64,000 nt of DNA from Infirmifilum lucidum (GTDB lineage Archaea; Thermoproteota; Thermoprotei; Thermofilales; Thermofilaceae): assembly GCF_014876775.1 (NCBI RefSeq), contig NZ_CP062310.1:124001-188000 (forward strand), given 5' to 3'. The notes beneath the pieces were generated by a model. The model was not told the origin of the DNA, did not search any database, and worked only from the letters and a program-made list of their open reading frames with translations. The position numbers were made by a program, and so were the translations under genes. Shown here in pieces: positions 1 through 19,382 of this stretch. The first letter of the stretch is position 1. Each line of letters begins with the position of its first letter.

Positions 1-540
1 GTGAGTATCGATGAAGCCTGCAACCTTGTGGGCTATTCCCCTGAAGTCTGTTAGAGCATAAGACTGCCTTAGTTCGGCAATGAACATTTTCAGCTCACTG
101 TCGACAGGCTGGAGAAAGAGGGGGATAAGAACAATCGACAGAAGGAAGAAAATAACAAAAACCAGGCTGAGGTCTTTAATCAGCGTTGTTTTAAATGCCT
201 TGAATACCACTTGTAGTATAAGACCTGCTGTTTGCCTCCCGCCAAACCTAAACTCAGAAAGATTCAGTCTGGTAAGATGCGCAGCTGTGAGTAGAGCTGC
301 GAGTAGAATGGGGTATAATTGCCGAAGGATCTCTAATTGGGGGTAGGAAAACCACCACGGGTTTAGCTTAGCGGCGAAATACACAAGTAGCTCTAGAGGC
401 CACTTCGGGAAAAATATAAAAATGAGATAACAAATGAAATAGTAAAGGAGAAATATAAAAATGAGAAATAAAAGAATGAGACAGTAAAGTGAGAGGTGGA
501 GTAAGAGTTGTGTAACATATCTTCTATCAAGACGCCACAT
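1..540 (-). CDS. Polytopic membrane protein, truncated by the left edge
   Basis: A minus-strand frame is open from an ATG at 540 to the window edge (180 residues seen; the C-terminus lies outside). Residues about 14-47 form one long hydrophobic stretch rich in L, I, F and Y. Further hydrophobic segments lie near 68-90 and 125-148, so it is a multi-pass membrane protein. I do not recognise the family. It diverges from the gene at 652, with about 110 bp of AT-rich sequence between them. A 16-bp direct repeat (412-427 and 451-466) doubles an LIFIF motif in the first membrane segment. Composition is much AT-richer than most of the window, as in the rest of this island, which suggests transfer. 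Confidence 0.65.
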   Translation of the reverse strand, partial: MWRLDRRYVTQLLLHLSLYCLILLFLIFIFLLYYFICYLIFIFFPKWPLELLVYFAAKLNPWWFSYPQLEILRQLYPILLAALLTAAHLTRLNLSEFRFGGRQTAGLILQVVFKAFKTTLIKDLSLVFVIFFLLSIVLIPLFLQPVDSELKMFIAELRQSYALTDFRGIAHKVAGFIDTH

Positions 541-13431: not shown

Positions 13432-14118
13432 TTAGGGCCAGAGTGACAGTGTTTTTAGGAGGAGTGGCACTAGTATAGTTGTGATCAGTGTGGCGACTAT
13501 AGCTACGAGGCTTGCACTGACTAGGGTTGTGAGGCGGTCAACGCTCTTGTTGATGCCCTCTATGTGGGCGTCCATGTAGTGCATGAGGTCGCTCTTCAAG
13601 CTGTCTATTCTATTCTCTAGTTCAGCTCTAAGGCGCTGAAACTCTTGTCTCGTGGCAGCCTCTGATTCACTGATCTTAGCCTCTAGTTCAGCTCTAAGGC
13701 GCTGAAACTCTTGTCTCGTGGCAGCCTCTGATTCACTGATCTTAGCCTCTAGTTCAGCTCTAAGGCGCTGAAACTCTTGTCTCGTGGCAGCCTCTGATTC
13801 ACTGATCTTAGCCTCTAGTTCAGCTCTAAGGCGCTGAAACTCTTGTCTCGTGGCAGCCTCTGATTCACTGATCTTAGCCTCTAGTTCAGCTCTAAGGCGC
13901 TGAAACTCTTGTCTCGTGGCAGCCTCTGATTCACTGATCCTGGCTTCGAGGTCGGCTCTGAGCTCCTTTATGTCTTGCTTTGTGGCGGCCTCGCGTATGA
14001 CGCCCTGCAGGAGCACTAGCCTGACTTCTGGGTCTGATACAATAGCCCCTGCGAGCATCCTGAGGGCTTTGGGGTCTTCGACTATGGCTTTGACTACTTC
14101 TTCGGCCTGCATTGCCAC
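13432..14118 (-). CDS. Coiled-coil protein with 22-residue repeats and C-terminal membrane anchor
   Basis: 228 residues. Residues 1-50 form a conserved head (AEEVVKAIVEDPKALRML, then PEVRLVLLQGVI). Residues about 58-170 are five nearly identical 22-residue repeats (AKISESEAATRQEFQRLRAE), that is, two hendecads each and a long right-handed coiled coil. The last 30 residues are a hydrophobic helix (LVAIVATLITTILVPLLL) that should anchor the protein in the membrane. It is paralogous to the gene split by an insertion at 11919-12590. It could be a spacer, sensor or bundle-forming protein; function unknown. Confidence 0.75.
   Translation of the reverse strand: MAMQAEEVVKAIVEDPKALRMLAGAIVSDPEVRLVLLQGVIREAATKQDIKELRADLEARISESEAATRQEFQRLRAELEAKISESEAATRQEFQRLRAELEAKISESEAATRQEFQRLRAELEAKISESEAATRQEFQRLRAELEAKISESEAATRQEFQRLRAELENRIDSLKSDLMHYMDAHIEGINKSVDRLTTLVSASLVAIVATLITTILVPLLLKTLSLWP
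13615..13944. repeat. Five tandem 66-bp repeats inside a coding region
   Basis: Units start at 13615, 13681, 13747, 13813 and 13879. The first four are identical by eye and the fifth differs in the last few bases. Such identity at synonymous sites means recent expansion or homogenisation by slippage or recombination. Each unit adds exactly 22 residues, so copy changes keep the frame. Confidence 0.95.
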
Positions 14119-14188: not shown

Positions 14189-14722
14189 CTACTCGACGCC
14201 TAGCGCCTGCCCTCTGTTGGCTTTGCGGAGCCCCAGTGCCTCTAGGAGCTCGGGGTCTGGCTCTGCAGGCTCTACGAGGAGTTGCTTCCTGTCAAAGTAG
14301 ATGTTGAGCGGCGGTGGCTCGCCGTAGTGCTCGGCGTAGGTTCTGAGCACGGCCCACCCGTGCCGCCACGCCGTCAGCGTGTCGGGGTACGCCTTGAAAG
14401 TGATGTACAGCTCCTCGTCCCTGATCTTGTCCAGGAGGCCGAAGTACTCTGCGACTACTACCAGGGCGTGCCTGTTTGCCCGCGGCTTCCCACCACTCCT
14501 GGCCGCCTTGAGGTGTCTCAGGAGATCTGAGACAACCCTCCTCCTGAGGTTCTCCGTAGCCTCTACGTAGAGTACACCCCTGTAATCCACCCCCAGCATC
14601 CTGGGTATCGGGACTGGCCTGCCCCCTCTGAACCACAGAACCGCGTAGACGCAGGGGTCGCGTGGGAGGGTGGGGGTGTCAGGCGCGATGTCGGCGAGCC
14701 TGTATATGAGCATGTAGCCCAA
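14189..14722 (-). CDS. Putative GIY-YIG-like nuclease-fold protein
   Basis: 177 residues. The order VYAVLWFR (about 26), GVLYVEATENLRRRV (about 49-63) and a late AEHYGEPPPLN (about 129) mirrors GIY, YIG, the catalytic Arg, and the Glu/Asn of GIY-YIG domains, with substitutions in each motif. It may be a divergent nuclease or an inactive relative. Upstream is an AT-rich promoter-like stretch (about 14738-14752). The neighbours are small accessory genes, so a role in defence or mobile DNA is possible but unproven. Confidence 0.5.
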   Translation of the reverse strand: MGYMLIYRLADIAPDTPTLPRDPCVYAVLWFRGGRPVPIPRMLGVDYRGVLYVEATENLRRRVVSDLLRHLKAARSGGKPRANRHALVVVAEYFGLLDKIRDEELYITFKAYPDTLTAWRHGWAVLRTYAEHYGEPPPLNIYFDRKQLLVEPAEPDPELLEALGLRKANRGQALGVE

Positions 14723-14931
14723 TAGGAGAACACTCCGGGCCTAAAATACTATTGCCCCAGCTACGGCACTCACAGTAGCCCGTAGTAGTACAGAGGAGGA
14801 GACTGCGCCGGCGCCTTCCCGCGCTCGCGCCTACTCCTGTCCCCCGTGCACTGCCCCGGCTATCCCACGCGGAAGTACCACGACACCCGCTAAAAGGCCT
14901 TCACGCCGGGGGTGGCCCGGGGGAGCCCAGC

Positions 14932-15369
14932 CTAAGCGCCTGTGCACGGCTCGATGCCTAGCACCTTGCAAGTCTCGATGGCCCTGTCCTCGAAGTGCGG
15001 GCTCGCGATCACCAGCTTGTACGGCTTGCGTCCAGTCACCCTCTCGTAGAGCTCAGCCTTCCTCTTGAACGCCGCCACGTCGCCCCGCCTCGCGTGGGGT
15101 AGAACCTCCACGAGCACTACCCCTGGGCCGCACGCCACGACGTAGACCTCGACGTGGAAGGGCACCGAGTACACGTAGCCCTCGCTGTCAAAGTACTCCC
15201 ACTTCTCAACCACCAACCCGTGCTCCTCTCTGAGCGCCCTCCTTATCTCCTCGCGGAACTCCTCCTCGCTGATCAACCCGTACATCGCGCACAGCGCGTC
15301 CACCATCCTCGATAGCTTCCCCACCTCCTCCCTCAGGGCTCGAACCACCCTCTCAATGTCCGGCTCCAT
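14932..15369 (-). CDS. Coiled-coil plus PD-(D/E)XK-like protein (DUF3782-type)
   Basis: 145 residues. A helical N-terminus (REEVGKLSRMVDALCAMYGL) leads into a nuclease-like beta core: FHVEVYVVACGPGVVLVEVLP, then a long helix and YKLVIASPHFEDRAIETC. This layout matches the archaeal DUF3782 proteins, whose core belongs to the PD-(D/E)XK fold. The usual E-x-K is VEV here, so activity is doubtful. The longer relative in this window (43551-44249) keeps VAEVKS. Confidence 0.6.
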   Translation of the reverse strand: MEPDIERVVRALREEVGKLSRMVDALCAMYGLISEEEFREEIRRALREEHGLVVEKWEYFDSEGYVYSVPFHVEVYVVACGPGVVLVEVLPHARRGDVAAFKRKAELYERVTGRKPYKLVIASPHFEDRAIETCKVLGIEPCTGA

Positions 15370-15456
15370 CGCGCCAGCACCGCGTTTCCCCTTCGGCGGC
15401 GCCGCCGCGCCGTATAAGACTTTAGGCCCCGGGCACGCGGGGGCACGCCAGCATAC

Positions 15457-15636
15457 CTAGACAGTTACGCTCCTGAGGAACTCCCTGGCGTCCTCGAGCC
15501 TCTCGAAGACGCGCCTCGTGTAGAGGTTCTTCTCCACGCTGAACCTCGAGCCGCAGCGCGGGCACTGCGTGGTCTTCGTCCCGGCTCTCGCAATCTTGAG
15601 CTGGCCGCACCTCGGGCAGGAGACGACAACGTACAT
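15457..15636 (-). CDS. DUF1922-like zinc-ribbon protein (59 aa)
   Basis: Starts at ATG 15636. Two CPRCG knuckles (residues about 7-11 and 23-27) define a zinc ribbon: SCPRCGQLK and QCPRCGSRF. A basic helix follows (YTRRVFERLEDAREFL). Proteins of this size and pattern are widespread in Thermoproteota and are annotated DUF1922. A nucleic-acid-binding role is likely (inference). Confidence 0.8.
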   Translation of the reverse strand: MYVVVSCPRCGQLKIARAGTKTTQCPRCGSRFSVEKNLYTRRVFERLEDAREFLRSVTV

Positions 15637-15780
15637 GGCTACAGCTCCCTAGGAACGGGGAAGCATAAAACCGTTTCGCGCAGGGCTACCTGTGGTTCCC
15701 AGCGTCCTCCCAAGCCTGGAGGGTTCCCTCGGGGCATCGCCCGTCCTCCCGCTCTGAGCCCGGCGCTAAGCCCTTCTGGC

Positions 15781-16099
15781 TCACGGGGCTATAGACCCCA
15801 GTACTACTTGTTTCTTCGCCCCGGTAGCGCCTGGGACGCTTGTGGGTGTGGAGTTTAGCGCCTCGTGGGCCAGTACCGCCATGCCTAGCGCCTCCTTGAA
15901 CTTAGAGTCGGTATTCCTCGCTCATGGCGAGCCTCAGCCCCCTTGACTTGAGCTCCTTCTCGAGCCACTTTACAAGGGTTTTGTTCCTGGCGCCTCCACC
16001 GCTGAGAATCACGACGCTGGCGTCAACTCTCGGGAGAATGAGCATGTCGTAGTTCGCTATCCCGCCGATGTTCTGCACGAGCCTGCCTTCGCGTGACAT
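15781..16099 (-). pseudogene. anmK: Remnant of anhydro-N-acetylmuramic acid kinase
   Basis: The reading frame from ATG 16099 gives VQNIGGIAN and, soon after, ILSGGGARNKTLVKWL, both hallmark segments of AnmK (sugar kinase/ASKHA fold). The stretch normally between them is missing. A stop follows EEYRL, but after a one-base shift the frame continues as DSKFKEALGMAVLAHEAL, then VPGATGAKKQVVLGSIAP, the AnmK C-terminus. The N-terminal half is absent, so the gene is dead. AnmK phosphorylates anhydro-MurNAc from peptidoglycan. The broken GH20 gene beside it fits an old amino-sugar salvage locus. Confidence 0.75.
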
Positions 16100-16215
16100 C
16101 GCTGCAGGGGGCCACGGAGAGCTACAAGCTCTACAGTTTCGCGGTAAAAGTCCAGGTACAGTTGGTGTCCTTTGAATGTCTAGTCGCCTTCAAGGCTTTT
16201 TCCACGGCCTAGCGC

Positions 16216-16641
16216 CTACGTCTCGTCTCCACCTATGAGAATGTACTTCGAGGGGGAAAGGTCGGCGGCTTCCGCCGGAAGTTCTAGAGCGAGGCGCCGA
16301 GTATCTGGATCCGAGAGGTTAATGCACCCCTCCCGAGGTGACCACCACTCACTGTACTTCCTGTAGTTAGGCAGACTTAGTATGTTCTCCATGTGGCCTA
16401 CGAGCTCGAGAGACGGGAAAACTTCTATGCCGAGCGACCGGCCATACTCAATTATCCGTGAGAGCTCACTTAAGGTCAGCCTCCCCCGGGTGGCTCCTAT
16501 GTCTGGATGACGTGGCCACGGGAAAAGATCCTCGAAGTAAATGCCGAAGTGATTGTACTTCAGTAAGAACAGGTAGCGCAGAACCTCTTTAAATGTCTCG
16601 AGGTTTGGCACACCAAGGAGAGACAGCGCGCGATTTGGCAT
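16216..16641 (-). pseudogene. GH20-type beta-N-acetylhexosaminidase, N-terminal half (inverted)
   Basis: 142 codons whose product reads LLKYNHFGIYFEDLFPW, then ELVGHMENILSLPNYRKY and ends at YILIGGDET. The GGDE at the end is the catalytic Asp-Glu pair of a GH20-like hexosaminidase, and a stop follows at once. The rest of the barrel is on the opposite strand from 16675. The usual N-terminal RGFHLD-type segment is also missing. Confidence 0.7.
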
Positions 16642-16674
16642 AGTGTATCGCAGGCTGAGTTTCTGAAGAAGGCA

Positions 16675-17184
16675 GTGATAGTGAACTGGTACTACTACCC
16701 CCGACCAGCGAGCTACTATACGTCGCTAATAGAGTACTTCAAGAGTAGAGGCTACACTCAGATAGTCGCTCCTGGTCTCTGGAACTGGAACAGGTACTAC
16801 CCGAACTTCGAGAGAGTCCTGGAAAATGTAAGTAACTTCCTAGAAGCCGTGAAGAAAGCAGGAGTCCACGGGTTTATGGTGACAGCTTGGGGTGACAACG
16901 GTGAGGAATGCTTCTTTAGGCTTCTATACCCTCTTCTAGTCGCCTCGATGGAGTACGCTGAAGGCGATGGGAAGTGGGAGTTTTCATGGATGGCTCTCAC
17001 GGGAGAGAGCGAGAGAGTGCTGAACTGCAGAAAGAAGCTGGGGGTGGGAGTTATAGCGGACAACCTTAAGGGATTCCTACTCGGCTTTACAGAGAGACAT
17101 TTAATTGGTGACGAGTGGATAGCTCTAGACAGCTTCTATGCAAGTGCATCTGAAGAGCTGAAGCAGAGTTTTAGGAAGGCTTGA
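16675..17184 (+). pseudogene. GH20-type hexosaminidase, C-terminal half
   Basis: The translation gives VNWYYYPRPASYY, APGLWNWNRYYPNFE, then FMVTAWGDNGEECF, which matches the second half of the same glycoside hydrolase family as the minus-strand piece at 16216-16641. The frame is open upstream to about 16645 without a proper start. The halves are back to back, so an inversion split the gene and roughly 100 central residues are lost. The C-terminal frame itself is intact to its stop. Confidence 0.7.
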
Positions 17185-17405
17185 TCCACGTATTGTTGTG
17201 CCAAATATACATGGCAGGTGGAGCCTGTATAAGGTCGTAGTATATGCCGAGGGTTATAGCGCCAACCACGAATGTGTTAAAGTGGCCCTAGGGAACCCTC
17301 GTATGGAAATGCTCCAGAGAAGAAGTTCTTGTACTTTGGCTGTGAGTAAGTCGTGTAGAAGAGTGCTAGGAGCACTACTCCTAGAGCGAGAGTCCTGTTT
17401 TTCAT
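17171..17405 (-). pseudogene. Small membrane protein gene with a frameshift
   Basis: ATG 17405 opens MKNRTLALGVVLLALFYTTY (signal or anchor) and runs to a TAA at 17277-17279. After a one-base shift the frame continues TFVVGAITLGIYYDLIQAPP and ends with TWIKPS at 17171. Both parts look like real protein, so one indel is the simplest reading. Its 3' end overlaps the convergent GH20 fragment by 14 bp. Family not recognised. Confidence 0.45.
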
Positions 17406-17504
17406 CCTCTCATTAGTAGAATCATAGTTGGTCTCATTATTTATTATAATCTATTCACGCTAGATACTTGAAGGGTTTTTAGTATAACTATTCCCTAGGG
17501 CGAA

Positions 17505-17518
17505 AATAATATATTATT
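17505..17518 (+). promoter_or_regulatory. TATA box for the EamA-type transporter gene
   Basis: AATAATATATTATT, centred about 27 bp before ATG 17539 in an AT-rich stretch. The spacing implies a leaderless mRNA. Confidence 0.6.
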
Positions 17519-17538
17519 TTTCGAGTTGTGCAAAAAAT

Positions 17539-18381
17539 ATGCTTTGGAGCCTCTTCGCGCTGGCTGCTGCGCTGCTCTTCGCGCTAGCGGGTGTCTTGTA
17601 CAGGAAGGGCGTATCGGGGTCTAGTATTAGCCCCCTGCTCGCCAGCGGCCTTAGGGCGGGCCCGGCCTTCATGGTGATGTTGCTGGCCTTCCTGGCTACA
17701 GGTGGGAGCCTCGACAGGCCGCTCGAGTTCTATGCGATCGCTACGGCCTCGGCGCTTTCAGCCTTCTTCGTGGGCGACTCTCTCTTCATATACGGCCTCT
17801 CGCAGGCGCCTGTCGGGGTCGTGTACCCAGTCGCATACACGTACCCCCTGTTCGTCGCGTTGTTCAGCTTCCTGTTCACCGGGAAAGCCCCGCGTCCCGC
17901 CTCGCTCGTAGCAGCTGCCCTCATGGCGGCCGGCACGTGGGCTGTCTACGGCAACGGCGGGGGCTTCGCGGTTAGAGGGCTCCTGGCCGGCGTGGGGGCT
18001 GGCGCCGGCTGGGGGCTTGGGATAACGCTGGCGTCCCTCGCCCTCAAGTACGCTTCACCCGTAGAACTGAACCTGTACAGGACTGGGTTCCTGCTGGCGG
18101 CAACAGCCCCTGTGCTGGCGAAGCAGGGGGCTAGGCTCGGGGAAGCCAGGCTTGGGTGGCTGTTGCTCGGGGGGCTGCTCGGGATAGGCCTCGGGCCCCT
18201 GGCCCTGTTCACCTCCATCAAGATGTCTGACGCTGTGGGCCCGGCTGTGGTCTCCTCCGGGGCCCCCGTGTTCGCAGTACTGCTGGCGGCCCCCTTGCTG
18301 GGCGAGAGGGTAGAGCCGAGGTACATGCTCGGGGCAGTGCTGGCGACGGTGGCGACGGCTGTAGCGTCTGCCTGGGGCTAG
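17539..18381 (+). CDS. EamA/DMT-family transporter
   Basis: 280 residues with ten predicted hydrophobic helices in two homologous halves, as in EamA/DMT exporters of amino acids, nucleotides or sugars. Features include an N-terminal ALLFALAGVLYRKG, a first-half VVYPVAYTYPLF and a second-half GPAVVSSGAPVFAVLLAAPLLGERVEP, the usual positions of the EamA signature (here the second copy ends in LGERVEP). The substrate cannot be read from sequence. The gene ends 4 bp inside the convergent gene 18378-19382. Confidence 0.85.
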   Translation: MLWSLFALAAALLFALAGVLYRKGVSGSSISPLLASGLRAGPAFMVMLLAFLATGGSLDRPLEFYAIATASALSAFFVGDSLFIYGLSQAPVGVVYPVAYTYPLFVALFSFLFTGKAPRPASLVAAALMAAGTWAVYGNGGGFAVRGLLAGVGAGAGWGLGITLASLALKYASPVELNLYRTGFLLAATAPVLAKQGARLGEARLGWLLLGGLLGIGLGPLALFTSIKMSDAVGPAVVSSGAPVFAVLLAAPLLGERVEPRYMLGAVLATVATAVASAWG

Positions 18382-19382
18382 GCGTGGCTCGGAACTCTTA
18401 CTCTCTCCTCAACCCAGACCCACGTCTTCTCGTCGTCGCTCAGGAACTTCCAGAGTAGGGGCGTGCCTAGCTCTACCGAGGCCTTGGCGAACATGAGGCC
18501 TCTCGTGGCCTCGGCCCTCCACTCGTGTAGCAACTCGTATACAGAGGGGAGGAAGCTGCCGTCGACCTGCCCCACGTAGAGGGCCCAGCGTCCCGCGATG
18601 TAGGAGGAGCCCCACGCCGGCAGGAGGGCCAGGGTCTTCGCCACTCTAGGTGCGTCCTTGCCCTCCAGCTCTAGGGCTATTACTGGAGTCTTGCCGGGGT
18701 CGCAGTACTCGTGGTAGGTCGTGTAGAGCCAGCCCGGGAGGAAGTGGACGCGGTAGTGGTAGCTTATGACAGTCTGCGACGGGATGCCGGCCCAGTGTAG
18801 GTGCTGGAGCTTCTCCAGTATAGTTTTAGGCCTGGGGTAGGGGCCTAGCATCATCTTCCCGGTTAGGTAGACGAGGTCGTAGAAGTCGGGCATTTTGAGG
18901 GGCTCCGGCTTCTCGAACTTCGGCATGATAGAGTCTACGATACCGGGTAGCTTTGCAACCTTCTCGGGCCTGAGGCCCTGTAGCTCCTCTAGGGGGAGCC
19001 AGTGCTGCACCTCCTGCGCTATGAAAGCCTTCCCCTCTCCCAGGGCCTCGTGGAGGTCGTCTACGAACCTATCCGCGAGCACTCGCGGCACGAGGCCTAC
19101 GACTAGCGCATGCTCCCCGGAGGGGGAGCTGAGAACATGCAGCGAGAGGGAGCCGTGCGGGAGCGAGCCCGGCCACCTGGCCCTCTCCGCTATGAAAACC
19201 ACTCTAGCTAGGCCGTAGTAGGCGTCGTCGGGCACTATGAAGAACCTGCCCCTGCGGGACCTAGACTGGTAGAACTTGATAGCAGTCGTAGCGGCTACCC
19301 CCGCGATCCTGGCGAGCTCCCGTAGGCTCCTGGCTCTGGGCACTGCGTATAGGAGGGGTCTCTCGTCCACTATAACTGGCAT
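18378..19382 (-). CDS. Putative winged-helix protein of unknown function
   Basis: 334 residues. Residues about 15-50 (ARSLRELARIAGVAATTAIKF) look like an HTH of the AsnC/MarR kind and are followed by a basic wing (SRSRRGRFFIV). The remainder is a mixed alpha/beta region without recognisable motif and with many aromatics (HYRVHFLPGWLYTTYHEY). It may be an archaeal transcription factor with a ligand-binding C-terminus. It sits tail to tail with the transporter gene; the link is unknown. Confidence 0.65.
   Translation of the reverse strand: MPVIVDERPLLYAVPRARSLRELARIAGVAATTAIKFYQSRSRRGRFFIVPDDAYYGLARVVFIAERARWPGSLPHGSLSLHVLSSPSGEHALVVGLVPRVLADRFVDDLHEALGEGKAFIAQEVQHWLPLEELQGLRPEKVAKLPGIVDSIMPKFEKPEPLKMPDFYDLVYLTGKMMLGPYPRPKTILEKLQHLHWAGIPSQTVISYHYRVHFLPGWLYTTYHEYCDPGKTPVIALELEGKDAPRVAKTLALLPAWGSSYIAGRWALYVGQVDGSFLPSVYELLHEWRAEATRGLMFAKASVELGTPLLWKFLSDDEKTWVWVEERVRVPSHA

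Follow-up and report, generated by a model that had tools for sequence, protein, structure and literature searches.

The GH20 family of hexosaminidases is marked by an adjacent Asp-Glu catalytic pair, and the kinase AnmK converts anhydroMurNAc to MurNAc-6-phosphate, from which MurQ produces GlcNAc-6-phosphate. Intragenic invertons consist of an inverted piece inside a gene, with inverted repeats at both borders. In a published GH20 phylogeny Thermofilum is named once (PMC2492878). Among the titles and abstract openings retrieved for archaeal AnmK, NamZ, intragenic inversions, Thermofilum GH20 and Infirmifilum, no treatment of a relic of the type described below was found, and no paper on an archaeal intragenic inverton was found among the titles listed.

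The DNA that was analysed, referred to here as the window, is a 64,000-nt stretch of the Infirmifilum lucidum genome (contig NZ_CP062310.1, positions 124,001 to 188,000). The genome is a single contig of 1,625,846 bases and is 99.95% complete. Within the window lies a locus that is very probably a non-functional relic of neighbouring AnmK and GH20 genes, derived from a divergent pair that was scrambled and then decayed. It is a case of ordinary pseudogenisation with an unusual anatomy, bearing nonsense codons and a frameshift and lacking stretches of both genes, and likely has no function. The features of the locus, in window coordinates, are as follows.

15784-17184, both strands: debris of an AnmK kinase gene and a GH20 hexosaminidase gene, pseudogene remains of approximately 1.3 kb
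15726-15753, strand not given: possible MazG-like remnant (weak), a 28-nt match that is colinear with the flanking one and has 86% identity to L141 (82% to L143)
15784-15909, minus: AnmK C-terminal piece, model 339 to end, out of frame with the next piece
15944-16012, minus: AnmK piece, model 304-326, PSSM 34.5 bits, tblastn match to L042 residues 311-344
16052-16090, minus: AnmK piece with the NIGGIAN motif, model 172-184, PSSM 28.4 bits
16089-16118, plus: AnmK piece of 10 residues with the RDIAAGG motif, model 146-155, PSSM 21.9 bits
16111-16614, minus: inverted GH20 piece, model 115-282, E 3.3e-74 in the own-genome profile search, two in-frame TAG codons
16612-17088, plus: GH20 piece, model 297-455, E 5.3e-61 in the own-genome profile search, frame open to 17184

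When compared to the intact archaeal or thermophile GH20 branch (L003 and L010), the pieces in the window aligned over 168 and 159 model positions and the GGDE motif was kept. In contrast to the intact enzymes, there was no continuous frame over the catalytic domain; the window copy is split over two strands, contains two stops and lacks both ends, since no remnant of the 114 N-terminal and 93 C-terminal model positions was found above noise in the locus by tblastn or PSSM (the best matches, at E 0.034 and 0.040, came from the two Caldivirga-like proteins among ten queries). Similarly, the NIGGIAN, GGGxxNKTL, GATGA and RDIAAGG motifs of intact AnmK (PF03702; L041 and L042) were recognisable in the window pieces, whereas the full-length frame of approximately 370-400 aa was absent; the window copy is in four pieces, with a frameshift and with one piece on the other strand, and approximately 290 of the 394 model positions were unrecognised. 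Stops, a frameshift, deletions and a long branch are shared with prokaryotic pseudogenes in general, including failed horizontal transfers (PMC522871); in contrast to these pseudogenes, the relic has repeated strand switches within 1.3 kb. It resembles an intragenic inverton in having an inverted piece within a gene, but inverted repeats of at least 6 nt do not flank this piece and the gene ends are lost.

A profile built from ten intact GH20 relatives was run on the organism's own genome, and the two GH20 pieces were the only matches at E≤10. They cover model positions 115-282 and 297-455 and do not overlap, 14 positions lying between them. The minus-strand ORF at 16216-16641 matched GH20 in Pfam (PF00728, E 1.8e-8). 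Since the plus-strand ORF at 16675-17184 had no Pfam match of its own, relatives were needed to show its GH20 identity; in tblastn both ORFs had their best match with L002 (E 1.7e-64 and 2.6e-54, respectively). An earlier note, made from the sequence alone, had assigned the N-half of a GH20 gene to the minus strand and the C-half to the plus strand. This assignment was confirmed, as both halves aligned to the same protein of approximately 555-570 aa in relatives, and conversely the GH20 proteins of relatives gave two alignment blocks in the window, one on each strand. Judged by these alignments to intact relatives, the halves belong to one GH20 gene and not to different families, and are consecutive parts of that gene on opposite strands.

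GH20 was sought in 61 genomes, including that of I. lucidum; the plus-strand half was matched in 19 of these and the minus-strand half in 20. In all 18 relatives' loci used as queries, among which L008 and L018 reach a contig end and L019 is a distant relative, GH20 was a single open frame on one strand (418-649 aa, stop to stop), and the intact gene of the same-genus genome G004 encodes 565 aa. Intact versions of both genes survive in related species, and one intact homologue is in the same genus. The named records behind the nearest relatives were from Thermofilaceae and other Thermoprotei, and the nearest solved relatives by sequence were 2epk and GH20C 5a69. A 61-row tree gave the window GH20 an end branch of 0.84, compared to a median of 0.088, and grouped it at a support of 92 (95 being firm) with rows from Thermofilaceae and other Thermoprotei and with two from Bathyarchaeota; the long branch belonged to none of the firmly supported groups that contain at most half the rows. 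Across 94 columns conserved at ≥95%, it retained 80 (85%) and had changed 14, whereas the median retention of the other rows was 100%. Loss of constraint is thus indicated by comparison with relatives, with the reservation that the retention in L104 and L102, 87% in both, is close to that of the window, so that the column count alone is no proof of decay. The case for decay is carried by the stops, the strand switches and the missing ends. Against it counts the plus-strand C-piece, the frame of which is still open over 169 codons.

The AnmK remnant was detected with the PF03702 profile at 15784-15921 (profile positions 321-366, E 3.9e-7, 29.5 bits against a cut-off of 24), and this genome yielded no further AnmK match; the ORF at 15902-16099 alone scored 18.7 with the AnmK profile, below the cut-off. 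The C-terminal piece had 58% identity to L042 residues 359-396 in tblastn and scored 36.3 bits over 15814-15909 with a PSSM made from eight AnmK proteins. These results agree with the earlier description of an AnmK remnant, with a frameshift and an internal deletion, next to GH20. The remnant lies to the left, on the minus strand; model positions 172-184, 304-326 and 339 to the end were matched, while positions 185-303 were unrecognised and the 172-184 and 304-326 pieces are separated by a gap of only 39 nt.

The plus-strand AnmK fragment at 16089-16118 was missed in the earlier note. Its score of 21.9 bits was reached in none of 1200 random 150-nt windows (maximum 20.0), and in a smaller set of 150 such windows the best score was 17.0. 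Due to its weak result in plain tblastn (E 0.16-0.22 only), the identification of this piece depends on its profile score together with its position between the minus-strand AnmK and minus-strand GH20 pieces, where it fits the gap. The fact that it is just 10 residues long counts against the explanation preferred here.

The N-half ORF ends with a TAG codon at 16216-16218, right after GGDET, and the catalytic Asp-Glu pair is thereby retained just before the stop. The observation that the N-half stops exactly after the GGDE pair was correct with respect to the end of the ORF but not as the site of a breakpoint. At codon 16216-16218, Trp was present in 98% of the aligned relatives, and homology to GH20 continued beyond the stop in the same frame for approximately 35 codons, past a second stop at 16180-16182, to position 16111. 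As the homology runs on in frame, the stop is point decay, a nonsense codon within the inverted piece whose position right after the catalytic pair is coincidental. The joins were accordingly misplaced by the earlier note, which put them at approximately 16215 and 16642 and predicted inverted repeats there; profile and tblastn homology both place them elsewhere, near 16110 and 16612, and no inverted repeat of at least 12 nt links 16215 with 16642. Furthermore, comparison of the sequences around the joins (16085-16130 and 16590-16640) revealed no inverted repeat of at least 6 nt, and four 5-nt matches. The plus-strand AnmK piece and the minus-strand GH20 piece have an 8-nt stretch in common (16111-16118).

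From left to right the order of the pieces is the 3' part of AnmK (minus), AnmK 146-155 (plus), GH20 115-282 (minus) and GH20 297-455 (plus). An inversion followed by loss, as had been suggested, is supported by this arrangement, but a single inversion is insufficient because AnmK contains an inverted piece too. We infer that the simplest ancestor was a divergent AnmK/GH20 pair that was broken by at least two small inversions and by deletions; for the other intact starting orders that were tried, counting by hand, more inversions were required. In such an ancestor AnmK would have been on the minus strand and GH20 on the plus strand. One piece of each gene would then have changed orientation almost where it lay, through the repair of double-strand breaks by rejoining or through template switching, in either case with no long inverted repeats, both 5' ends lying between the two genes would have been deleted, and point decay would have come afterwards. 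Against this history, no genome with an intact divergent AnmK/GH20 pair was found, and there was no AnmK/GH20 adjacency in the archaeal loci examined. Among 62 GH20 loci (flanks of up to 10 kb, with many short contigs; 38 of the 60 counted had at least 2 kb on both sides), AnmK was nearby only in the bacterium L081, approximately 5.5 kb away on the same strand.

Several other explanations of the opposite strands were considered. The pieces could have been left by two head-to-head GH20 copies, of which deletions spared only the N-part in the first and the C-part in the second, with no inversion. Opposite strands would be accounted for in this way too, and some relatives have GH20 paralogues (matches fell on three contigs in G011 and on two in G030). 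The two adjacent copies are nevertheless improbable, because one piece ends in the protein nearly where the other begins (282 and 297) and they do not overlap, which would not be expected from two copies; moreover, no second GH20 copy was found in this genome and the plus-strand AnmK piece would be left unexplained. It is also very improbable that the arrangement is a chimera made during assembly or library preparation rather than in the cell. The arrangement is known from one assembly alone, but this assembly is the nearly complete single contig described above, GH20 has no matches elsewhere in it, and the stops and long-branch divergence in the pieces would be absent from a chimera of intact sequence. 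An inverton that reversibly switched the gene on and off would explain an inverted internal segment; given that inverted repeats of at least 6 nt were lacking between the joins, that the segment contains stops and that both gene ends were not found, this explanation is hardly credible.

Two further proposals were considered, neither of them likely. Instead of stepwise inversions, a single event of local shattering or of microhomology-driven template switching may have occurred in this hyperthermophilic archaeon. Pieces of the two divergent genes would then have been rejoined in their original order with the strands alternating (minus, plus, minus, plus) and with small losses, the shared 8-nt stretch lying at one of the joins; we regard this as a tentative suggestion. 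The locus may also have been acquired horizontally, perhaps already broken, and have never worked in this lineage, a doubtful proposal but one that is compatible with the preferred explanation. The G+C content was 49.7% in the plus-strand GH20 piece (16612-17184) and 40.6% at 17185-17536, compared to 57.6% in the window; in the AnmK part and the inverted GH20 piece it was near the window average (59.6% and 53.3%, respectively), and decay can also lower G+C, so that the pattern fits an insertion of foreign DNA in part only. The genomes G001, G005 and G006, which are of the same genus and have flanking genes in common with the window on one side or both, have a MazG-like gene beside the EamA gene and no GH20 or AnmK match, in keeping with acquisition. 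An 18-nt inverted repeat, GAGGGTTCCCTNGGGNCA, flanks the debris at 15719-15736 and 17283-17300 (16 of 18 positions matched); these are its only two mismatch-free matches in the genome, two others having 2 mismatches each. Such a pair was also present in 10 of 60 shuffles, which is within chance, and a mobile-element origin based on this repeat was rejected. Pfam named no transposase among the nine ORFs scanned (14189-19382), and the tree grouping described above, although below firm support, is with Thermofilaceae, other Thermoprotei and two Bathyarchaeota rows and not with a distant donor.

The flanking genes, which encode a zinc-ribbon protein and an EamA transporter, keep their synteny in G001 and G006, and the disruption is therefore local. 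In both of these genomes a MazG-like gene lies between the two flanking genes (95% identical between them; the G001 protein matched PF12643), and in G005 the EamA gene is followed by a gene for a protein 61% identical to the MazG-like protein. At this position the window has approximately 1.9 kb containing the debris instead. No MazG-like gene was found elsewhere in this genome at E≤1, in a search run without a positive control. The EamA gene lies beside a regulator-like gene, the HTH match of which was below the cut-off (17539-19382); the two are also neighbours in G001, G005 and G006, and in G006 the regulator is split over two frames.

If intact, the enzymes would have released amino sugars and phosphorylated them, with fragments of bacterial peptidoglycan as the most likely source. 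The previous suggestion of an ancestral use of cell-wall or chitin sugars is plausible, albeit indirect, and co-occurrence favours its bacterial cell-wall part over chitin. AnmK was present in 8 of the 61 genomes, this relic included, all eight of which also have GH20, and MurQ exceeded its cut-off in 11, of which nine have GH20, compared to a base rate for GH20 of 20 of 61 (relic included; G022 is a distant match). The association of GH20 with AnmK (one-sided Fisher test, p = 4e-5 by genome and 0.011 by genus) and with MurQ (p = 3e-4 and 0.007) was significant with kinship ignored, the counts being phylogenetically non-independent in that four of the eight AnmK genomes belong to one genus; AnmK with MurQ (3 of 8, p = 0.15) was not significant alone. 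Weaker MurQ matches occurred in 58 of the 61 genomes, many of them too short for MurQ, and G018 had a partial match of 167 bits. Taken with the biochemistry of AnmK and MurQ, these co-occurrences make salvage of bacterial peptidoglycan sugars the likelier past role, with chitin less likely. The debris may also represent an acquisition that was never put to use. As profile searches of this genome matched GH20 and AnmK nowhere else, and MurQ did not exceed its cut-off, the salvage function has probably been lost from it. As a locus the relic is a dead-gene remnant of little weight for the organism; it provides an archaeal example of alternating-strand scrambling.

Clusters with apparent bacterial peptidoglycan sugar salvage genes were observed in Thermofilales (L114:734-11508, L151:4940-9226, L152:4766-9017 and L154:6651-10279), and no literature on such clusters in archaea was found among the titles listed. 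L114, L151 and L152 encode MurQ and the exo-muramidase NamZ together with a beta-lactamase-fold hydrolase and a kinase resembling BadF/NagK, and L114 encodes AnmK as well; the best NCBIfam match of the L114 hydrolase was PBP4B, below its cut-off. In L154, MurQ and NamZ alone were confirmed by profile. L152 also has a domain of class I lysyl-tRNA synthetase (PF01921), which is mainly the archaeal type of this enzyme. The presence of AnmK, MurQ and NamZ-type genes in archaea of this order suggests that bacterial cell-wall sugars are a food source for some archaea.

To the left of the locus, the ORF at 13432-14118 contains a perfect tandem array (13615-13939) of 4.9 copies of a 66-nt repeat, AELEAKISESEAATRQEFQRLR, with a 100% match between copies, which suggests recent expansion.
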